Part shown: piece after piece, positions 2,646-56,965 of the stretch
How the letters are laid out: every line of letters starts with the position of its first letter
How positions within the stretch are numbered: the stretch's first letter is position 1
Assembly: GCF_000328525.1 (NCBI RefSeq)
Contig: NC_019964.1
Location: 2,108,001 to 2,172,000 of the forward strand
Direction of reading: 5' to 3'
From: Halovivax ruber XH-70
Lineage (GTDB): Archaea; Halobacteriota; Halobacteria; Halobacteriales; Natrialbaceae
DNA: 64,000 bases
Notes under the pieces: generated by a model
What the model was told of the DNA's origin: nothing
Databases searched by the model: none
The model's input: the letters and a program-made list of their open reading frames with translations, nothing else
Translations under genes and position numbers: made by a program

Positions 2646-3578
2646 ATGGACCAACTGAATCGGATGGCGATCGAGCTGGTCGACGAAGCGCTCGAGTACG
2701 CCGAGGAGTTGAACGTCGGCGTCACCGAGCTCGACTCCGAGTCGACCATCCTCGACTTCGGTATCGATCACCCCGGCGGGATGGAGGCCGGGCTGTTGCT
2801 CGCCGAGATCCAGACCGCCGGCCTCGCGACGCTCCGTCGCGAGCTCGGGACCGTCGGCAGTGCGACGGTGCCGTACGTCGAACTCTCGACCGACCAGCCC
2901 GCCCTGTCGCTGCTCTGTGCGCAGAAAGCCGGCTGGGAACTCGCGACAGAGGACTTCGAGGGACTCGGAAGCGGGCCAGCCCGCGCGCTCGTCGGCGAAG
3001 AGGACGTCTTCCATCGGATCGGCTACTCGGAGACGTTCGATCTGACCGCACTCGCCGTCGAGACCGACCAGTACCCGACCGAAGCCGCCGCGGATCAGGT
3101 CGCCGCGTTCGCCGACGTCCAGCCCAGCGGTGTCTTCCTGCTGGCGTACCCGAGCGCGAGTCTCGTCGGCAGCGTAACGAACGCCGCCAGAGCCGCAGAG
3201 CTTTCGACCTACCGGCTGGCCGAACTGGGGTACGACCCGCGTGACATCGTCTCGGCGAGCGGGCGCGCACCGGTTGCCCCCGTGGCCGGAGACGAGGGCA
3301 CGGCCATCGCCCGAACGACCAGCGCGCTGGCCTACGGCGGGCGCGCTCACCTGGTCGTCCGCGAACCGTTCGACGACTTCGACGCGATCACGTCGACCGC
3401 CGCGGCCGACCACGGCGTGCCCTTCGTCGAGATCTTCGAGGGAATGGACTGGCACTTCGACGACGCACCGGCCGAACTATTTGGCCCCGCGACCGTAACC
3501 GTCGACGTGATCGGCGGCGAGACACACACGTTCGGCCAGACGCACGAAGACGTGCTCGTCGAATCCTTCGACCTGTAA
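2646..3578 (+). CDS. mch: Methenyltetrahydromethanopterin cyclohydrolase
   Basis: 310 aa, the usual Mch length. In methanogens it interconverts 5,10-methenyl- and 10-formyl-tetrahydromethanopterin. In haloarchaea it is taken to act in C1 metabolism on the folate-type carrier. The N-terminal pattern MDQLNRMAIELVDEALEYA and the following ILDFGIDHPGGMEAGLLLAE are characteristic, as is the late stretch HLVVREPFDDFDAI. A TATA-like box about 26 bp upstream supports the ATG at 2646. The next gene starts 22 bp after its stop and is probably in the same transcript. Confidence 0.95.
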   Translation: MDQLNRMAIELVDEALEYAEELNVGVTELDSESTILDFGIDHPGGMEAGLLLAEIQTAGLATLRRELGTVGSATVPYVELSTDQPALSLLCAQKAGWELATEDFEGLGSGPARALVGEEDVFHRIGYSETFDLTALAVETDQYPTEAAADQVAAFADVQPSGVFLLAYPSASLVGSVTNAARAAELSTYRLAELGYDPRDIVSASGRAPVAPVAGDEGTAIARTTSALAYGGRAHLVVREPFDDFDAITSTAAADHGVPFVEIFEGMDWHFDDAPAELFGPATVTVDVIGGETHTFGQTHEDVLVESFDL

Positions 3579-3600
3579 TCCACCCCTGGAGGACCGGCCC

Positions 3601-4104
3601 GTGCAATTCAAACCGCTTCCCGACCCGCCGACCGACGACCCGCTCGACACGCTCGAGCGGGTACGATCGGCGCTTCCGAGCACGCCGGAGCCGAATCTGG
3701 ACTGTTGTGCCCGCGTGATGGCGGAAACGACCGTCGAAACACGCGACGAAGCCGGCGACTGGCTGACGTTCTGTCGCGCGCTCGAACTCGCTGCAGCGGA
3801 ACCCGATGGCTACCGACGTACCGGACGGTCTGCCACCCTCGGTCGACCCAGCTTCGGGTCGACGTTCCGAGATCGCGTCCTCGGGGCCGACGAGGTGATT
3901 GGCACGCTCGAAGCGGCCGACGATCCGCTCACACCGAACACGCTCTTCGCTCGACTCGACGACGCGGACGCGATCCCACGCTCGGCCAGGCGCCGACACG
4001 GCGACCAGCTCGAAGCGCACTGGACCGACCGGATTCGTCGAATTCTCGACTGGGCGGTCGCGTTCGACAATGTCGAACGCATCTGCGACGGCTATCGGGC
4101 CTGA
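3601..4104 (+). CDS. Conserved haloarchaeal protein downstream of mch
   Basis: 167 aa, GTG start. I do not recognise a domain. The protein is soluble and fairly neutral for a haloarchaeon, with an Arg-rich C-terminal third (PRSARRRHGDQ and DRIRRILDWAV). A Cys pair occurs near residue 36. It begins 22 bp after mch, so it is likely part of the mch transcript. A degenerate 20-bp tandem repeat follows directly after its stop. It could be a helper of mch or an unrelated passenger. Confidence 0.7.
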   Translation: MQFKPLPDPPTDDPLDTLERVRSALPSTPEPNLDCCARVMAETTVETRDEAGDWLTFCRALELAAAEPDGYRRTGRSATLGRPSFGSTFRDRVLGADEVIGTLEAADDPLTPNTLFARLDDADAIPRSARRRHGDQLEAHWTDRIRRILDWAVAFDNVERICDGYRA

Positions 4105-4117
4105 ATGAGTACCAGAC

Positions 4118-4237
4118 GGCCGAAGTCACGACCGTCGGACCAGTGGCACGACTCCCCAAGCAGTGTCACGGCTATCCAAGCAGTGTCACGTCCGTCCGCC
4201 CGATGTCACAGTTACCCGACTGGCGTCACGTCGGTCA
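4118..4237. repeat. Degenerate 20-bp tandem repeat, six copies
   Basis: Six consecutive 20-bp units share a central GTCACG-like hexamer. Units begin at 4118, 4138, 4158, 4178, 4198 and 4218. The two best copies (4158 and 4178) both begin aagcagtgtcacg. The array fills the space between two convergent genes and its last unit and a half enter the 3' end of the GTPase gene, encoding its final residues. Confidence 0.75.
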
Positions 4238-5894
4238 CCGTCCCGACGCCTTTACTGCGGCCCTCGCGGAAGACGAACTTCTGGCCCTCCTCGACGAGGT
4301 ACGGGCGGAACTTGAATCGAACGCGGGCCGTCCCGGAGTCCCCGGGGAGGAGGCGTCCGTCGTCTGGATGAAACGCGGCTGCCTCGCCGATGGTCTCTAA
4401 GTGAACCACCGGTTCGTAGCCGTCGCCGATGCGAGTCGGGTGGTTGAGCACCATCACTTCGGCCTCGAACTCCCGGACTGGGTCGGGATCGGCGTCGGCC
4501 GGCAAGAGGACCATCCCGCGCTCTAAGGCCGACTCGGCGATTCCCTTCAGGGCGATGCCGACGATTCGGCCCGACCGGGCCCGGTCGACGCGGTGATAGT
4601 GCATCTCGATCGAGCGGACCTCGACCTCGCGAAAGCCGCCGTCGGCCATCGGCCCGACGAGCAGTTCGTCGCCCGCTTCGACTTCGCCCGACTTGATCGT
4701 CCCCGAAGCGACCGCGCCGACGCCGGTCACCGAGTAGGAGCGATCCACGTACATTCGGAACGCGCCGTCCTCGCCGGCGGTCTTGGGGAGTCGGTCGAAG
4801 AGTTCGTCGAGCGTATCGAGGCCCGCGGTCGTGACCGCGCTCGTGCGTACGATCGGAACGACCGTCTCGCCGATCTCCTCGACGGCCGCGTCGACGCCGT
4901 GGCGCTCGATCGACAGCGGCGACTTCTCGACGTCGCGCAGCAGGCGTTCGACCTCGCGTTCGACCGCTTCGACGCGCTCGTCCTCGACGAGATCCGTCTT
5001 CGTGATGGCGACCATGGTCGGCAGATCCGTCGCGAGGAGGACCCCGAGGTGTTCGCGCGTGACGCGGGTTGGCCCGTCGTCGGCCGCGACGGTGAGTAAC
5101 CCGTAGTCGAGCTTCTGCCCGACGAGGCCGCGGATCGTCGTCCGCAGCCATGGTTCGTGCCCGACCGTGTCGACGAACGAGACGAGGCGATCCGCCTCCT
5201 CGACGACCGCCGCGCGATCGCCCTTGCGGTTCGGATTCCGGACGTGAACTGGGCCATCGTCGTCGAACCCGTAGACTGCGTAGGAGAGGTCCGCCGAGAG
5301 GCCGCGTTCGACCTCGTGGGGCTTGACGTCGAGAAAGCTCCGCGTGTTGCCCTCGCCGTCGTCGGCCCGGCCGGTCACCAGCGAGCCGACGAGGGTGGAC
5401 TTGCCGTGGTCGACGTGGCCGGCGGTGCCGACGACGACGTGTTCGGTGTCCGTCTCGAGAACCGCGCCGTCACACACCGTCGCGACGCCGACGAGGCCAC
5501 TCGCGGAGTCGGCCTCACCGGCTCCCTCCGACGCGGCGTCCTTCCCGTCCTCGACGGACGAATCCGCCCCCACGTTGGACCGGTCGACGCCCCACGTCTG
5601 GACGTCTTCGATGTGGGCATCGGCTTCCTCGGCGAGCAGGGAGAGGACGTCCATCGACTCGGAGAACGCGTCCGGCGAGATGCCGGCGAGGCCGCCGTTG
5701 TCGGTGACTCCAACGACGTAGGTCGCCTCTCCGTCACCGGAGAGTACGCGATGGCGCAACTGCGCTGCGAGACTCTCGCGTCGCCCCTCCGCCAGGTGGA
5801 CGTGCCGGGAGAGACGCTCTTTGAATTCGACGTTGCCACCGTCCTCCTCGCCACGGTCCAGGGCCCGCTGCAACAGGGCCCGGTCACGGGACAT
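4212..5894 (-). CDS. GTPBP1/2-like translational GTPase
   Basis: 560 aa. A GTPase of the EF-Tu/Hbs1 class. Eukaryotic GTPBP1/2 act on stalled ribosomes, and the archaeal role is inferred from that. G1 is GTAGHVDHGKST (about 156-167), G3 DTVGH (242-246) and G4 TKTD (298-301). EF-Tu-like beta-barrel domains follow (GVGAVASGTIKSGEVEAGDEL). The N-terminal domain has GNVEFKERL near 20-28 and YVVGVTDNGGLAGI near 59-72, as in the GTPBP family. An acidic linker (about 108-132) precedes the G domain. I chose the ATG at 5894 (MSRDRALL) because upstream codons look like non-coding sequence. Confidence 0.88.
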   Translation of the reverse strand: MSRDRALLQRALDRGEEDGGNVEFKERLSRHVHLAEGRRESLAAQLRHRVLSGDGEATYVVGVTDNGGLAGISPDAFSESMDVLSLLAEEADAHIEDVQTWGVDRSNVGADSSVEDGKDAASEGAGEADSASGLVGVATVCDGAVLETDTEHVVVGTAGHVDHGKSTLVGSLVTGRADDGEGNTRSFLDVKPHEVERGLSADLSYAVYGFDDDGPVHVRNPNRKGDRAAVVEEADRLVSFVDTVGHEPWLRTTIRGLVGQKLDYGLLTVAADDGPTRVTREHLGVLLATDLPTMVAITKTDLVEDERVEAVEREVERLLRDVEKSPLSIERHGVDAAVEEIGETVVPIVRTSAVTTAGLDTLDELFDRLPKTAGEDGAFRMYVDRSYSVTGVGAVASGTIKSGEVEAGDELLVGPMADGGFREVEVRSIEMHYHRVDRARSGRIVGIALKGIAESALERGMVLLPADADPDPVREFEAEVMVLNHPTRIGDGYEPVVHLETIGEAAAFHPDDGRLLPGDSGTARVRFKFRPYLVEEGQKFVFREGRSKGVGTVTDVTPVG

Positions 5895-17197: not shown

Positions 17198-18448
17198 TCA
17201 GGAGTCGGCGACCCGGGAGACGATCGGCGTCGCCGTCACACCGTGGACGACGATGGAGATGAGAACGACCGCGCCGACCAGCGCCCAGAGCAGGTCGGGC
17301 TCGGCGAAGACCGCCTCGTTCAGCGCGTGCGAGAGGTAGTAGAACGAGCCGATGCCGCGAATCCCGAAGAAGGCGATCGTGGCGCGTTCCGTCCACGGAC
17401 GATCGAAGCCGAGGAGTGAGATGACCCCCGCCAGCGGCCGGATCACGAAGACGATGGCCACCGCGACGACGGTCGCCTCGACGGTCAGCGGGCCGAGCAA
17501 GCCGCTCGCGATCGCCCCGCCGAAGAAGATCATGATGACGCCCATCGCGAGCTGTTCGGCGAGTTCGGCGATCTGATGGAGCGAGTCGTTGTACTCGTGG
17601 GAACGCTCGGAACTGCGGATCGTCACGGCGGCGACGAACACGGCAATGAAGCCGTAGCCACCGACCGCTTCCGTGAGTCCGTAGACGAGCAGGGTCCCGG
17701 CGACGGCTTCGAGTCCCTGGACCGATTGGGCGATCTTGGTGTCAGGAGCGGTGAGGAAGATGAGCCGTGAGACGAGCCAGCCCAACGCGACGCCGAGGAG
17801 GGTGCCGACGACGATACGGTAGCCCACGTCGACGAGGAGCCACTCGACGGCCCAGTTGCCCGGCGCCAGCCCGATCAGGGCGATCGCGATCGCGAGATTG
17901 GTAAACGGGAACGCCAGCCCGTCGTTGAGCCCCGCTTCCGAGGAAAGGGCGAACGAGACGTCTTCGTCGCCGACGGGACTGTCCTCGTACTCGGCTCCCG
18001 TCTGGGGTTCGTCGACCTGCACCTCGGCGGCGAGGACGGGATCGGTCGGGGCGACGACCGCCCCGAGGAGGATGGCCGTGGGGGCGACGAAGCCGACCAC
18101 CCACCACCCCAGTACCGTCGCCCCGGCGATGGACAGCGGCATCGCGATCGCGAGCAAGCGCCACGTCGAGGCCCAGGCTCGCAACCCAGGTGGCCGGTCG
18201 AGTTTCAGCCCGACCCCCATCAGTGCGATGATCACCCCGAACTCGGCCAGTCGTTCGGTCGCCGCGGGCTGTTCTAACGGATCGAGCGCCGGGAGCCCGA
18301 TCGGTAGCGAAAAGACGGCGGCACCGAACGCCACGAAGAGGATCGGAAGCGAGATGGCTCGCCGAGCGACGAAGCGCGGCAAGATCGCAATGGCGAACAG
18401 GAGGATGCCGGCGACGATCACCAGCAGATCGTACAGTTCGAACGCCAC
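17198..18448 (-). CDS. nhaP: Na+/H+ antiporter, NhaP/CPA1 family
   Basis: 416 aa from the GTG at 18448; an earlier GTG at 18502 lies inside a tandem repeat and is less likely. About 12 hydrophobic segments. CPA1 hallmarks are LLGAVVAPTDPVLAAEVQV, the SEAGLNDGLAFPF pair of acidic residues in a membrane helix, and FFGIRGIGSFYYLSHAL near the C-terminus. It exchanges monovalent cation for protons across the cell membrane, for Na+ extrusion or pH control. An extra acidic loop (EPQTGAEYEDSPVGDEDV) sits between the two motifs. Confidence 0.92.
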   Translation of the reverse strand: MAFELYDLLVIVAGILLFAIAILPRFVARRAISLPILFVAFGAAVFSLPIGLPALDPLEQPAATERLAEFGVIIALMGVGLKLDRPPGLRAWASTWRLLAIAMPLSIAGATVLGWWVVGFVAPTAILLGAVVAPTDPVLAAEVQVDEPQTGAEYEDSPVGDEDVSFALSSEAGLNDGLAFPFTNLAIAIALIGLAPGNWAVEWLLVDVGYRIVVGTLLGVALGWLVSRLIFLTAPDTKIAQSVQGLEAVAGTLLVYGLTEAVGGYGFIAVFVAAVTIRSSERSHEYNDSLHQIAELAEQLAMGVIMIFFGGAIASGLLGPLTVEATVVAVAIVFVIRPLAGVISLLGFDRPWTERATIAFFGIRGIGSFYYLSHALNEAVFAEPDLLWALVGAVVLISIVVHGVTATPIVSRVADS

Positions 18449-18477
18449 GTAGCCACCTCCCACGAGCACCGACAAAA

Positions 18478-18585
18478 ACCACAGTCCACGGAGAGCGGTC
18501 ACCTACCACAGTCCACGGAGAGTGGTCACCTACCACAGTCCACGGAAAGCGGTCTCCTACCACAGTCCACGAAGAGCAGTCCACT
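18478..18585. repeat. 27-bp tandem repeat, four copies
   Basis: Units start at 18478, 18505, 18532 and 18559, with consensus accacagtccacggagagcg followed by gtcacct. The first two copies differ by one base. The array lies in the divergent spacer immediately before nhaP and spans an in-frame GTG for that gene. Confidence 0.85.
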
Positions 18586-18680
18586 GCGGCATCGGGACGG
18601 TGCTGCCATCGTTCGTGGATGTCCCGCCGCCCGACGTACGCAAGCCCACCGTAGTTCGGCGCCGACCCCCAGCATCGACT

Positions 18681-19355
18681 ATGACCGGGCGTCGCGCCGA
18701 ACCGGTGAATGCGACCACCGACGGCGGTGAGAAGCGATCGCAGGCCGACGAGACGAGCGATGCGCGCTCGACATCGCCGACCGATTGGACGACTCGCCGG
18801 CGCGTACTCCGTACCGGCGCAGTTGCGGGGCTCGCCGGACTGGCCGGCTGTACCGAGGACGTCGGGTCGGAATTGCTGCCGAACAAGAAGTGGCCGGTCG
18901 CCGAACTGACGCCGTCACTGCCCATCGAGACCAGAGCCGACCGGTTCGACGCGAGCGTCGAGGCGGCCGCCGGGGCGGAGATCAGCGACGTCGAGACGTT
19001 CGCCGACGTCGTCACGGTCCGAATTCCGCGCCTCGAATCGGTCCGCGAGGATCGAGACGTCCTGTCCGTCGCGTACGTCACGGACGTCGATCGGAGCGAG
19101 GGGATCGGCAACCACGTCGCCGCACTCGCCGGCGCCTACGCGGCACTGGTCGACACCGGGTACGACGCGTACGCGCTCGGGACGACGATCCTCGAATCGC
19201 CCGACGAACCGATCGGGAGCGCGGTCGTCTACACCGACTGGGCAAGCGCCTACAACAGGGGCCGCTACACGACGGCCGAGTTTCGCGAACTCGTCTGGAC
19301 GACCATCGAATCGACACGAGACCCGCCGACGGTCGCGGTCGAGCCGGACGAGTGA
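18681..19355 (+). CDS. Tat lipoprotein with C-terminal domain shared with the 55.5-kb gene
   Basis: 224 aa. A hydrophilic leader of about 40 residues is followed by TTRRRVLRTGAVAGLAGLAGC, a twin-Arg signal with lipobox, so it should be exported and lipid-anchored. The last 90 residues (LSVAYVTDVD, then ALAGAYAALVDTGYDA, then VVYTDWASAYNRGRYTTAEF) align with the C-terminus of the membrane protein at 55529-56218. I do not know a function for this domain. The next gene, a cation-antiporter regulator, starts 130 bp later with its own TATA box. Confidence 0.75.
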   Translation: MTGRRAEPVNATTDGGEKRSQADETSDARSTSPTDWTTRRRVLRTGAVAGLAGLAGCTEDVGSELLPNKKWPVAELTPSLPIETRADRFDASVEAAAGAEISDVETFADVVTVRIPRLESVREDRDVLSVAYVTDVDRSEGIGNHVAALAGAYAALVDTGYDAYALGTTILESPDEPIGSAVVYTDWASAYNRGRYTTAEFRELVWTTIESTRDPPTVAVEPDE

Positions 19356-19485: not shown

Positions 19486-19977
19486 ATGGACATCTACGAG
19501 AGCGACCTGCCGGGCGTCGGGAAGAAACACGAGGTCGAACTCGAAGACGACGCTCGCCTCGTCATCATCACACACAACACAGGGAAGCGAGAGATCTACC
19601 GGAAAGAGTCGCCGGACGCCGACGGTGAGCGACTCTTCGAGCTCTCCGATCGACTCGCCAGAACGGTCGGGACGATCCTCGAGGGCGCGTACTTCCAGCC
19701 GGTCGAGACCGAACAGGTCGAGACGCTGCTCTCGGACGAGACGCTCATCGAGTGGTACAACGTCGACGACGGGGCCGAGCTGGTAGGCCAATCGCTCGCC
19801 GACGCGAACGTCCGCGAACGGACCGGCGTGTCGGTCGTCGCGATCCAGCGCGGCGACGACGTGCTCTCACCGCCCGAGCCGACCGACGTCATCCAGACCG
19901 GCGACACGGTCGTCATCGTTGGCGCCCGGGAGGATTGCCAGACGTTCGAATCGTTGGTCTCGGGGGACGACGCCTGA
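19486..19977 (+). CDS. TrkA-C domain regulatory subunit of K+/H+ antiporter (KhtT-like)
   Basis: 163 aa. The N-terminal 80 residues are a small alpha/beta region (MDIYESDLPGVGKKHEVEL). The C-terminal part (about 90-158) is a RCK_C/TrkA-C ligand-binding domain (ELVGQSLADANVRERTGVSVVAI, then PTDVIQTGDTVVIVG). This architecture matches KhtT, the soluble partner of the CPA2 antiporter KhtU. The transporter gene follows 101 bp downstream on the same strand, supporting that pairing. The domain likely binds a nucleotide or cation signal. Confidence 0.88.
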   Translation: MDIYESDLPGVGKKHEVELEDDARLVIITHNTGKREIYRKESPDADGERLFELSDRLARTVGTILEGAYFQPVETEQVETLLSDETLIEWYNVDDGAELVGQSLADANVRERTGVSVVAIQRGDDVLSPPEPTDVIQTGDTVVIVGAREDCQTFESLVSGDDA

Positions 19978-20078: not shown

Positions 20079-21344
20079 GTGGCCGAGGTAACGCTCTTCC
20101 AGGTCGGGGTGCTGTTCGCCGCGGCGGCGGTCGCCGGCGTCGCCGCCGACCGGATCGGCCAGTCGGTAATCCCGCTTTACATTCTCGTCGGAATGGCCCT
20201 CGGCCCGTTCGTGCTGGGGCGGCTTCCCGACGTCCTCCCACCGCTCGAGGTCGCCGGAATGGACGTCGTCGGGTCCGTGAGTGCGATCGCCGTCGACGGC
20301 ACGACCGGCTTCGTCGTGCTCGGGGCCGAGATCGGGATCGTCCTCCTGCTGTTCTTCCTCGGGCTGGAGTTCAACATCGAGCGGCTGCTCGAATCCCGAC
20401 AGCGGATCGGCGCGGCGGGGACGATCGACCTGGCCAACTTCGTCGTCGGCTTCGGCCTCGGCTGGGTCCTGTTCGGCGGCGTGCTGGCAGCCGTTTTCGT
20501 CGCCGGGATCGTCTACATCTCCTCGTCGGCGATCATCACGAAGTCGCTGCTCGACCTCGGCTGGATCGCCAACGACGAGGCCGACCCGATCCTGGGTATC
20601 CTGGTCTACGAGGATCTCTTCATCGCGATCTACCTGGCGATCATCACGGCGATCGCGACGGGAAGCGGCGGCGTCTCGGAGGCGCTCACCTCGGTCGCCG
20701 TCGGGATGGGGTTCATCGTCGCCCTCCTCGCGCTGGTGACCCTCGGAGAGCCCATCTTCGACCGGCTGCTCGCGGGCGCCTCCCACGAGTTCACCGTCAT
20801 CCGGACGCTCGGACTGACGGTGTTGATCGCCGGCGTGGCACTCTCACTCGGCGTCAGCGAGGCCGTCGCGGCCTTCTTCGTCGGGATGGGATTCGCCTCG
20901 ACCGACCACGTCCACGATCTGGAGCGACTGCTCGAACCCGTTCGCGACACCTTCGCCGCCCTGTTCTTCCTCTGGATCGGCCTGCTCACCGATCCGGCCT
21001 CGTTCGGACCCGTCGTCGGGCTGATCGCGATCGCGGTCGTCGTCACGACGGCCTCGAAGCTCGTCACGGCCTACTGGGGTGGCCGGGTCTACGATCTCTC
21101 TGAGCGGCGGTCCGTCCGCGTCGCACTCGGGATGACGACCCGCGGCGAGTTCTCCCTCATTATCGCGAGTATCGCACTCACCGCGGGCGCCAACGGCGTC
21201 GTCCCCGCCGGCGTCGCCGACGAACTCTACGCCCTCGCCGTCGGTTACGTCCTCGCGATGAGCATCCTCGGCACGACGCTCATGGGCTACGCCGATCGGA
21301 TCGAGGGGATCGTCGTCCCGCGACTCGAGGCGAGATCGACCTGA
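20079..21344 (+). CDS. CPA2-family K+(Na+)/H+ antiporter (KhtU/KefB-like)
   Basis: 421 aa, GTG start (GTGGCCGAGG). About 12 membrane segments with the CPA2 pattern: IPLYILVGMALGPFVLG early, GAEIGIVLLLFFLGLEFN, GLGWVLFGGVLAAVF, and a late RGEFSLIIASIAL. It should move K+ or Na+ out against H+ in. There is no fused RCK domain; the separate TrkA-C protein just upstream probably supplies regulation. Together they look like a KhtTU system that adjusts internal K+ or pH. Confidence 0.9.
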   Translation: MAEVTLFQVGVLFAAAAVAGVAADRIGQSVIPLYILVGMALGPFVLGRLPDVLPPLEVAGMDVVGSVSAIAVDGTTGFVVLGAEIGIVLLLFFLGLEFNIERLLESRQRIGAAGTIDLANFVVGFGLGWVLFGGVLAAVFVAGIVYISSSAIITKSLLDLGWIANDEADPILGILVYEDLFIAIYLAIITAIATGSGGVSEALTSVAVGMGFIVALLALVTLGEPIFDRLLAGASHEFTVIRTLGLTVLIAGVALSLGVSEAVAAFFVGMGFASTDHVHDLERLLEPVRDTFAALFFLWIGLLTDPASFGPVVGLIAIAVVVTTASKLVTAYWGGRVYDLSERRSVRVALGMTTRGEFSLIIASIALTAGANGVVPAGVADELYALAVGYVLAMSILGTTLMGYADRIEGIVVPRLEARST

Positions 21345-53589: not shown

Positions 53590-53664
53590 GGGTTGGTAGT
53601 CTAGTCTGGTTATGACACCTCCTTGACATGGAGGAGATCGGCAGTTCAACTCTGCCCCAACCCA
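53590..53664 (+). tRNA. tRNA-Val (GAC)
   Basis: 75 nt without CCA. Acceptor GGGTTGG pairs with CCAACCC plus discriminator A. Anticodon stem CCTCC/GGAGG encloses TTGACAT, anticodon GAC. T arm GGCAGTTCAACTCTGCC. It is followed by cttttcc, a likely termination tract. Confidence 0.95.
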
Positions 53665-53926
53665 CTTTTCCGACGCTGGTGCCCTGACCAGCCGACGCAG
53701 CTACCTTCCTTATACGCGAATCGTTCGCTGTCAGGCTCACTTCACGTGGACCGCCGTCGTTCATGTGGAAGCGGTGGCCGTCTCGTGGTTCAGCAGTAAG
53801 GAGATGTATCACTGCAATAATGATTCACCTGCATACTCTTGATCGACCGTCAGCGGCCCTACGAGACCACCACTTCGCTGTCCGGAACACGTAACTCGAA
53901 CTCAGGGGGGTACCGTTCGCAACGGT
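53665..53926. other. Spacer between tRNA-Val and integrase relic
   Basis: No gene seen. A TATA-like cttatacg occurs near 53710. The base composition starts to drop here compared with the trp operon. Confidence 0.4.
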
Positions 53927-54375
53927 ATGCTTGACGCCGACCACGCCCAGAGGTCCTCAATTACCTCGACACGTACGAGTACGGCAAGCTCGCCCACGTC
54001 GCGCTGCTGTTTCTCTGGCGATCCAGGTTCCGTATCGGCGCTCTTCACGCGCTCAATGTGGACGACGATCCTGACGAGCGGGCGCTGGCTGTCGGGAATC
54101 GCCATGAGACGGGGACATCGTTGAAGAACAAGACAGACGGTCAGCGGTACGTCGCACTCGCCGAGGAGACGTGCGCCATGCTCGACGACTGCTGGAGACC
54201 ATCGCACCGTGGTGGCGGACGAGCACGGCCGAAAGCCTCTGTGTGCACCGACTCACGGATGTTCCCATAAAACCACCTTCGAAAACTGGTCTATCAGTGG
54301 ACGCGACCCTGCGCGGTCACCGGGGACTGTCCGCACGGACGAGCACCCGACTTGTTTCCTTCCAGATGACGTGTT
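53927..54375 (+). pseudogene. Decayed tyrosine recombinase (XerC/D-like integrase)
   Basis: Pieces of a haloarchaeal phage-type integrase in shifted frames. MLDADHAQ, then after a shift near 53949 EVLNYLDTYEYGKLAHVALL, RSRFRIGALHALNVDDD, RHETGTSLKNKTDGQRYVAL and AEETCAMLDDCW, then after a second shift near 54200 VADEHGRKPLCAPTHGCSHK. The Arg of RIGALHAL corresponds to the first catalytic Arg. The N-terminal domain and the HxxR/Tyr end are missing, so it cannot be active. Its position just after tRNA-Val is typical of integrase genes. Confidence 0.7.
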
Positions 54376-54390
54376 GAACAGGCATGTTAT

Positions 54391-54398
54391 CTTATATG
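54391..54398 (+). promoter_or_regulatory. TATA box of the 54.4-kb membrane gene
   Basis: cttatatg lies 22-29 bp before the ATG at 54420, supporting that start over the ATG at 54384. Confidence 0.55.
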
Positions 54399-54419
54399 TT
54401 GTCGCTTATATGGGGTGCT

Positions 54420-55193
54420 ATGATCCAATCAGACTACCGCACGGTGCTGAAGCACGCCGTCGCGTACCTGATCCTGTATCCTCTCTCGGTAATTGCTGGA
54501 CTCGTGGGACGCGTTGGAAAACTGCTTCCGATCCACAGACTCAGCTGGTGGGTGTTCGACCGGCTCATCGGGGTAGAGGAAGCGAAAGCGTGGAGAGACG
54601 ATCACGTGCAGCTCGTCGCCGATACCGTTGCAGAGGAACAGGCGGAAATCGAGGAAAGCCGTAACGAACTCGTCTCACAGATCAAGGAACGACGACGCGA
54701 AACGGAAGCCCGGTTTTCCGACGGGGAAACCGCCCTCTCACTCGCGATCGCCATTGCGTCGGTCACCGCCTCGCAATGGGTGACGCTTGTTCTCGCAGTA
54801 CTGCTCATCATCTCTGTCACTGTTCGGTTCACGGCGATCCGGGCAGTGGCCTACAATGATCCTGACCCTAAGTCAGACAAGGAATGGCTCTGGGCGCAAT
54901 CAACGTGGAACTGGCGGATCCTCGCTGGGAAGAACCTCACGGGGACGCTGATCTCGTTACGCGTGATACAGGCCATTGGAGACGGTATTTATGAGCGCTG
55001 GTTACACGAGGTATTTGCGCCTGCGGTCGTGAATCCCGACTCGGGAAAAGCAATGAAACGAATGTTCTCGATCTCCATGGAGGAGCTGAGAAAGCAAGCA
55101 ACCCCCGACGAAGGAGAGATACTGGAGTACAGCGATGAGGACGCCGGGAACGGGGACGTGGAGGAGCAAGAGGAGATCAAAGTAGAGGGGTGA
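54420..55193 (+). CDS. Membrane-associated protein with coiled coil, unknown
   Basis: 257 aa. A hydrophobic N-terminal segment (AYLILYPLSVIAGLVGRVG, about 14-32), a charged helix (about 55-100; EEQAEIEESRNELVSQIKER), a membrane pair near 108-145 (ASQWVTLVLAVLLIISVTVRF) and an acidic tail ending EEQEEIKVEG. Codon use is less GC-biased than in the trp genes. I do not recognise a family. It is the first intact gene after the integrase relic. Confidence 0.7.
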   Translation: MIQSDYRTVLKHAVAYLILYPLSVIAGLVGRVGKLLPIHRLSWWVFDRLIGVEEAKAWRDDHVQLVADTVAEEQAEIEESRNELVSQIKERRRETEARFSDGETALSLAIAIASVTASQWVTLVLAVLLIISVTVRFTAIRAVAYNDPDPKSDKEWLWAQSTWNWRILAGKNLTGTLISLRVIQAIGDGIYERWLHEVFAPAVVNPDSGKAMKRMFSISMEELRKQATPDEGEILEYSDEDAGNGDVEEQEEIKVEG

Positions 55194-55528
55194 GGACGAA
55201 CGCAAACTGCCTGTTCCACCTGTACGTTCACCTATCATCGTGAGGTAAATCATACGGACGTGTCGTGGTCAGGTCATACCCATAGCCCCCTGTGGACGCG
55301 TCGTCGATCGGGAGAGAATATCTACGCCGTATCCCGTCACGGGCCAAATCTTTCCATTTCCGTAGCAGGTCCTGTTGGGGTTTATTGTTTTCTTGCTGGT
55401 AGTACCTGTGCGTCTCGCCGCCTTGACTCACAGTTGCCGGTGGGAACGAACTTCGAACCGGTGCTCTGACCCATTTGACTGGTCGAGTGGGCCTCGGTGG
55501 TAGAATGAGGCGCACAGGGAGGATCGCT
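55194..55528. other. Spacer without supported gene
   Basis: About 335 bp of mixed composition with no ORF of convincing codon bias on either strand. Confidence 0.4.
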
Positions 55529-56218
55529 ATGGCAGAAATTGATCGCATCCCATTCATGAAGTCAGGGAGTACCGTCCGCAACGTGGTAGTTGGTTTCATC
55601 TACGTATTCGTGATTCTTTCAGTCTTTGGTGCTACTGTCGAAGACCCGGATGGTGAGGGCCCAAACATCAATAACGAAGCCGTTGCCGATGCTGAAACCG
55701 AAGCTGAGGAGACGGCTGGCGATAAAGCGAGTGAATCGACAGGAGAGGAAACGACGGAATCGAACACCAACGAACCGACTGATGAGGAAACGGGGGAATC
55801 GGACTCCAGTGAACCGACCGATGAGGCGACGACGGAACCGGACTCCAGTGAAGCAACCGACGATACGGGCCTGTCGACGGACGATGTCGAGTCGCTGTTC
55901 ACTGAGGTCGTAACGTCGGAAGGAGTAACAGTCACCGAGGTGAGCCATCAGAATGGAGAGTTACACGTCGAGTACATCCCTGCTGAATCGTCTGAAGTCA
56001 CTCTCTCTGCCGAGATGGGGACACTGGCCGGCGCGTACGCTGGGCTCGTAATCAACGGGGAGGGTGGGGACCGAATGTCCGTCACACTCGTTGGGCCGCA
56101 GGGCGACTGGATCGGTGAGTATTACGTTGACGCAGAGTGGGCCGATGCGTGGTATAACGGTGAGATCACCGATGCCGAGATGATTAATCGGATCGCCAGC
56201 ACGATCGTGACGGAGTAG
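55529..56218 (+). CDS. Membrane-anchored protein with acidic repeats and shared C-terminal domain
   Basis: 229 aa. One membrane segment near residues 19-35 (VVVGFIYVFVILSVFGA), then an acidic linker with repeats of the type ESDSSEPTDE (about 50-110), then a folded C-terminal domain of about 100 residues: LHVEYIPAES, TLAGAYAGLVINGEG, YYVDAEWADAWYNGEITDAE. That domain matches the C-terminus of the lipoprotein at 18681-19355. ATGs at 55475 and 55505 are also in frame. The function is unknown; the domain should be extracellular. Confidence 0.72.
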   Translation: MAEIDRIPFMKSGSTVRNVVVGFIYVFVILSVFGATVEDPDGEGPNINNEAVADAETEAEETAGDKASESTGEETTESNTNEPTDEETGESDSSEPTDEATTEPDSSEATDDTGLSTDDVESLFTEVVTSEGVTVTEVSHQNGELHVEYIPAESSEVTLSAEMGTLAGAYAGLVINGEGGDRMSVTLVGPQGDWIGEYYVDAEWADAWYNGEITDAEMINRIASTIVTE

Positions 56219-56314
56219 TGACGTGCACAGACAGCTCCTGGTCGGCTCACGATGGTGACGAGGGAATTGGCCCTCTACCACCATCTGAAAGAACCGTACT
56301 GGTCAAATAATTTC

Positions 56315-56965
56315 TCAGTCGCGATTGTGAATGCGCGAGTCAATCGGCCCTGAAAAAGATCCGGACCCGGTCACCGACGGTGTAGGGTCAGGCATCCGCA
56401 TGCCGCGATAGAACCGTGCGAGATCGTCCCCCACGTCGTCGAGTGTGAGGATCGCATCCGTGCCGAGATGGTCAGCGTCGTCGACGTACGCCGCGGCACG
56501 CTCGCGGGTGGCGAACGGAACCGGGCTGCCCGACATCGGTTCGTCCTGGGTTTCGACGGCCGTCTCCCCGACGAGGTAGCCGTCGGCGGCGTCGAACAAC
56601 TCGTTCGTTCCGTAGTCTGTGAACCAGACCCGCTCGATGGGTGCGTCCGTCGGGTGCGAGTGGCCGACCGCCCGGTAGGCGAGCAGGCATCCCGGCGTCT
56701 CGAAGAAGAGACCCGTCCCGTCGGCGTGGGCCAGTTGCGACGCCCAGGTCCGGTAGTCGACCGGCCGCATATTGCAGACGGGACAGCGGTGTGAGTCAGA
56801 GAAGGAAACGGGCTCGGTCACCGGGTGATCGACGATCGAGACGTTCACGGCGTTGTAGAACTGGTCATCGGTCGGCTCCGAGTCGCGGTCCGCACCGCCG
56901 AGACAGCCGGGAGCGAGTGCGAGTCCGCATATTCCCGTGGCCGCGAGATAGGCGCGCCGGTCCAT
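56315..56965 (-). CDS. NosL-like lipoprotein (copper-binding type)
   Basis: 216 aa. A hydrophobic start with a Cys at the end (MDRRAYLAATGICGLALAPGC) suggests a Tat/lipoprotein signal. CPVCNMRPVDYRTWASQL corresponds to the Cu(I)-binding CxxCGM motif of NosL, and FFETPGCLLAY, VWFTDYGTNELFDA and MSGSPVPFAT match later NosL regions. NosL delivers copper to nitrous oxide reductase, but no nos genes are here, so a different copper client is likely. Confidence 0.83.
   Translation of the reverse strand: MDRRAYLAATGICGLALAPGCLGGADRDSEPTDDQFYNAVNVSIVDHPVTEPVSFSDSHRCPVCNMRPVDYRTWASQLAHADGTGLFFETPGCLLAYRAVGHSHPTDAPIERVWFTDYGTNELFDAADGYLVGETAVETQDEPMSGSPVPFATRERAAAYVDDADHLGTDAILTLDDVGDDLARFYRGMRMPDPTPSVTGSGSFSGPIDSRIHNRD

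Follow-up and report, generated by a model that had tools for sequence, protein, structure and literature searches.

The window analysed here, namely the whole stretch of 64,000 nucleotides of the Halovivax ruber XH-70 genome, encodes a Tat lipoprotein (P0001) which we take, with a probability of roughly 0.55, to act as an accessory factor for a single clade of CPA1 (NhaP-like) antiporters, at their outer face. P0001 would be export-competent and anchored by its lipid to the outside of the cytoplasmic membrane, where it would physically bind the predicted Na+/H+ antiporter, its compact C-terminal domain serving as the binding module and both the conserved linker (G....P.N..WP.....P.LP) and the tail docking onto the transporter, and would stabilise, assemble or tune the antiporter from the high-salt side. 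We propose, tentatively, that an undescribed haloarchaea-specific domain, whose fold has no clear PDB counterpart, in this way provides a CPA1 sodium/proton antiporter with an extracytoplasmic subunit, a lipoprotein. CPA1 antiporters control cellular sodium and pH, and the antiporter link gives a testable function to one branch of an unnamed domain that most haloarchaeal genomes encode. It is also the informative part of this analysis beyond the initial annotation, which had drawn attention to the domain that P0001 shares with a second protein of the window (P0002) and had missed the antiporter. The features concerned are collected in Table 1.

Table 1. Features of the window discussed in the text (positions are those of the window; a dot marks features given without a strand)
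Feature	Position	Strand	Details
P0001, Tat lipoprotein with shared C-terminal domain	18681..19355	+	224 aa
Twin-arginine motif (R39-R41) to lipobox C57	18795..18851	+	16 residues from second Arg to Cys
Linker, candidate docking segment	18852..18923	+	subgroup-conserved G5, N11, W14, P15, P21, P24 (mature numbering)
Shared domain in P0001	18990..19316	+	H-E-E-H-E-E-H-H in model
C-terminal tail (R..P.V.V.P.E)	19320..19352	+	conserved, low model confidence
CPA1-type cation/proton antiporter, divergent partner	17198..18448	-	Na_H_Exchanger E=4.9e-36, residues 36-429
Shared divergent intergenic region	18449..18680	.	from coordinates
27-bp tandem repeat, 3.9 copies, in divergent region	18478..18581	.
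P0002, membrane-anchored family member	55529..56218	+	229 aa
Shared domain in P0002	55874..56215	+	pLDDT 95.9, pTM 0.88
tRNA-Val (gac), left edge of accessory block with P0002	53590..53665	+
Site-specific (tyrosine-type) integrase fragment	53935..54180	+	52% identity, E=2e-18 to plasmid integrases

The placement of P0001 follows from its N-terminus, which carries a twin-arginine signal and a lipobox, TRRRVLRTGAVAGLAGLAGC, with Cys57. The twin arginine of the n-region (R39-R41, TRRRVL) is also present in the relatives, and the spacing between the second Arg and the lipobox Cys, 16 residues in P0001 and 13-20 in the relatives, falls inside the published 12-21 (PMC2945643). The Tat-lipobox pattern was recovered in 43 of the 44 paired relatives, and in the 44th (L169) it was recognised by eye as RR..FAGC. 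Such an N-terminus marks a protein for Tat export and a lipid anchor, and P0001 is therefore expected on the outside of the same membrane in which the antiporter lies. Conservation of the linker and of the tail is confined to the antiporter-linked subgroup, although model confidence is partly low there; the linker is partly predicted to be disordered (model residues 4-18 with pLDDT below 50).

The divergent partner reads APTDPVLA and AGLNDGLAFP at the TDP and ND motifs, which we take to form the ion site in CPA1/NhaP proteins, and it misses the cut-off of the NCBIfam model PRK05326 (NhaP2-type K+/H+) with 91.8 against 355 bits. Its longest frame reaches 18502 and the starts of orthologues align at the GTG at 18448 (VAFELYD against MALELYN and similar), which is probably the true start, the longest-frame start being 18 codons too long. 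The 27-bp repeat between the two genes differs in congeners, seemingly, as judged from translated reads only.

The pairing of the two genes is the most consistent property of the neighbourhood. At all 24 loci of other genomes the P0001 relative stands head-to-head with the antiporter, and these same loci mostly lack the other genes that adjoin the pair in the window (ion channel, catalase, KhtT/KhtU, permease-Usp); named loci from a separate scan show the same arrangement, their hosts being Halovivax, Natrinema, Natrialba, Natronococcus, Halobiforma, Haloterrigena, Halopiger, Saliphagus and Halalkalicoccus. An automatic pairing rule was passed by 44 fetched loci including that of the window, of which 36 are distinct by antiporter sequence. 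The rule called one further locus, L157 of Natronococcus pandeyae, unpaired; both genes lie side by side there (3010-4504) with their facing 5' ends apparently missing, as though the region between them had been deleted or been lost in assembly. Lipoprotein divergently adjoins antiporter at 37 of 37 distinct loci. A transporter-like gene (2873-3739) stands between antiporter and lipoprotein at L161 (Natrinema zhouii). P0001 is followed directly, both in Halovivax and in genome G175, by a KhtT/KhtU-like pair, a TrkA_C protein (19486-19977) followed by a CPA2-type antiporter (20079-21344); a KhtT-KhtU operon was rejected as the functional context, since it is found beside the lipoprotein at only four of the 24 loci, two of them in congeners.

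In a sample of 195 genomes the lipoprotein is present in 25, every one of which also encodes the antiporter clade, with four genomes holding the clade without the lipoprotein and 166 holding neither (Fisher p=1e-27, a value inflated by the relatedness of the genomes). All paired rows of a 56-antiporter tree fall inside one clade with support of 100/100, in which the unpaired rows are L157 and four from a single genus (g27), and none of the 15 outgroup antiporters in the tree is paired with the lipoprotein. The pairing label changes three times on this tree, against 16.6 times in shuffles, and one gain and one loss would suffice because one of the three changes is L157, where the rule failed. 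The four g27 genomes have an antiporter about 60% identical and no lipoprotein, and therefore antiport itself does not strictly require the lipoprotein. Antiporter and lipoprotein distances are closely correlated (Mantel r=0.94, with none of 2000 permutations as high), a correlation that partly reflects shared species history, and a better argument is provided by duplicated copies: the additional antiporters in G047, G118 and archaeon YIM A00010 each have a lipoprotein of their own. Between the two G118 copies the lipoproteins share 36% identity as against 57% for the antiporters, the lipoprotein evolving much faster, a difference that speaks against the partnership.

These observations also bear on what else might hold the two genes together. 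The main rival is co-regulation only, according to which both genes would respond alike to salt or pH stress through a common divergent promoter while the lipoprotein acts elsewhere in the envelope. A divergent layout, here usually with 150-380 nt between the aligned parts, could by itself mean shared regulation, and the shared region of the window contains the 27-bp tandem repeat; yet additional antiporter copies keep their own lipoproteins, the two co-diverge, and conserved low-structure segments unique to the subgroup suggest a specific partner, and we regard this explanation as rather unlikely. A neighbourhood conserved by descent with no functional link seems to us improbable: most paired genomes come from one family, hence independent events are few, but the flanking genes to left and right vary around a constant pair, and the pair recurs in two further sampled families as well as in the duplicated loci.

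A narrower form of the accessory-lipoprotein reading would make P0001 an assembly factor, namely a chaperone of the pilotin kind, which would put its membrane partner in place or stabilise it and would not regulate transport. The weak fold resemblance of the domain to the lipoproteins EpsS, AspS and CamS-type points this way, although all of these structural matches remain at E 0.03-0.08 and TM below 0.5, and, to our knowledge, pilotins serve outer-membrane secretins, clients that are absent from haloarchaea; we consider it improbable. The outer-face partnership with the antiporter is the reading that we prefer: in terms of genome organisation the pairing is strong, and from it we infer a probable function. 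We found no papers on this lipoprotein-antiporter pairing in the open-access literature.

The common C-terminal domain from which the initial annotation had started is borne out, and both reading frames lie where it had placed them, strand included. BLASTP aligns residues 98-209 of P0001 with 114-226 of P0002 (30% identity over 113 columns, E=7e-9), and in a whole-genome search with P0002 the sole credible second match is P0001 (E=8e-7; reciprocal 3e-7). Since a single pair is not to be relied on, a profile-profile comparison was made from two alignments, one of P0001 with 23 close relatives and one of P0002 with 13 other members, which gave a significant match over 107 columns (E=2.9e-22, probability 99.5%); the similarity is far above chance, and the result named in the annotation as a refutation, a profile comparison without significance, did not arise. 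AlphaFold2 models mature P0001 as H-H-E-E-H-E-E-H-H (pLDDT 83, pTM 0.77), and the P0002 domain repeats the same order of secondary structure from the second helix onwards, the additional first helix of P0001 preceding the shared domain; the two models are not independent, because they have some alignment rows in common. The domain measures about 107-110 residues where about 90 had been proposed, and the motifs listed for it (LxVxY, LAGAYAxLV, xDWAxAYxxGxxT) only approximate the actual TDWASAYNRGRYT of P0001 and AEWADAWYNGEIT of P0002. That one domain occurs with different anchors and in different contexts proved correct; in P0002 a membrane segment at the N-terminus is joined to the C-terminal domain by an acidic linker rich in T, E and S.

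The domain is undescribed, as the annotation had suspected: none of 28 members scanned has a credible Pfam match above the gathering score, three members have no credible match in NCBIfam, and profile searches of PDB sequences with the domain returned nothing credible. PHROG gave four matches, each for one member alone and at an E of 5.7e-5 or higher; a phage origin was rejected, the phage records being without a match. Foldseek found nothing with the longer P0001 model, viral structures match that model only weakly, and the best PDB matches of the P0002 domain model are likewise weak (E 0.03 or worse). Several of these are surface lipoproteins, namely a CamS-type sex-pheromone precursor (prob 0.97, TMq 0.44) and the T2SS pilotins EpsS and AspS (E 0.05-0.08, prob 0.92 and 0.90, TM 0.44-0.49), a resemblance between models and structures that, at E 0.03-0.08 and TM below 0.5, may serve as a lead only.

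The family is widespread among haloarchaea and unnamed in the libraries searched. Of the 195 haloarchaeal genomes in the sample 158 encode it, and no sampled genome from elsewhere in the phylum does; the genome of P0001 and P0002 holds a third member at about 604.2 kb. Its forms comprise Tat and other lipoproteins, membrane-anchored proteins and, at L099, a secreted protein of several domains; in addition, many members stand alone as proteins of 112-141 residues with no signal, and this form is the commonest among the non-antiporter loci read (19 of 34). Calling the domain extracellular is therefore only partly right, since an export signal is missing from these many soluble stand-alone members. 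The best-conserved positions are a Tyr (30 of 31 representatives) and a Trp (30 of 32), with glycines and Glu/Thr positions in the last helix also conserved; an enzyme reading was dropped, there being no conserved catalytic-type polar set, and the pattern looks like that of a binding or structural domain. The wider family would be a haloarchaeal binding-type domain, reused in stand-alone soluble, lipoprotein and membrane-anchored proteins. Reading the neighbours of other members, which the annotation had recommended, revealed the antiporter link of the P0001 subgroup and no common partner for the rest. Aldehyde ferredoxin oxidoreductase was rejected as a family-wide partner, being true only for L096, L098, L100 and L102, where the stand-alone member directly follows its gene (Pfam-checked in L098) and ThiS-like small modifier genes lie nearby; other stand-alone members adjoin hydrolase-like or triosephosphate-isomerase-like genes, by lineage (L137-L142, L148, L149 and L145, L146, L152, named by eye), hence the lack of a common family partner.

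The history of P0002 is another one: its branch of the family is mobile, and it lies in a decayed element. Congeners match the DNA of the window only up to 53676, just past the tRNA-Val, behind which come the integrase fragment (a Pfam scan of this piece gave no match), a membrane protein that no more than 5 of the 195 genomes encode, and P0002; this remnant of an integrated element (53590-56300) is absent from the four congeners searched. The closest relative of P0002, L092 in G134, stands beside relaxase- and NikA-like genes and TrwB/TraD-like genes for coupling proteins, and by eye also shares the N-terminal anchor, FxPxMKxGSTVRNxxVGF. Because of the decayed tRNA-Val element and of this relative beside mobilisation genes, the branch can be said to travel with mobile elements, so that the proposed mobility applies to P0002, which would be one reuse of the haloarchaeal domain on such an element, and not to P0001, which is co-inherited with one antiporter gene. 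Next to P0002, on the opposite strand, a NosL-domain protein with a probable lipobox is encoded at 56315-56965.

Parallels to P0001 exist in several known systems. As in pairs of the KhtT-KhtU type, a small protein is encoded next to an antiporter, but the TrkA_C protein of the KhtT kind lacks a signal for export. P0001 resembles the TatLipo class of haloarchaeal lipoproteins, in which the lipobox Cys lies 12-21 residues after the second Arg (PMC2945643), in its twin-arginine signal, lipobox and spacing; that class is defined by the signal alone, whereas the domain of P0001 is undescribed. The T2SS pilotins AspS and EpsS and the CamS-type protein are, like P0001, small surface lipoproteins, and weakly resemble the domain model in fold, but they are bacterial and have no sequence match to it (E 0.03-0.08, TM below 0.5). 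We know of no outside partner of this kind for any CPA1 antiporter, and the separate CPA1 regulators known to us all act from inside; if true, an outside lipoprotein partner would be a new way of tuning CPA1 antiporters in organisms that live close to salt saturation. A functional likeness is offered by YcgO of Escherichia coli, a CPA1 antiporter which is inhibited by PtsN (PMC11808508): here too a CPA1 cation/proton antiporter is combined with a separate regulatory protein, but PtsN acts from the cytosol, whereas P0001 is predicted to be a partner on the outside.
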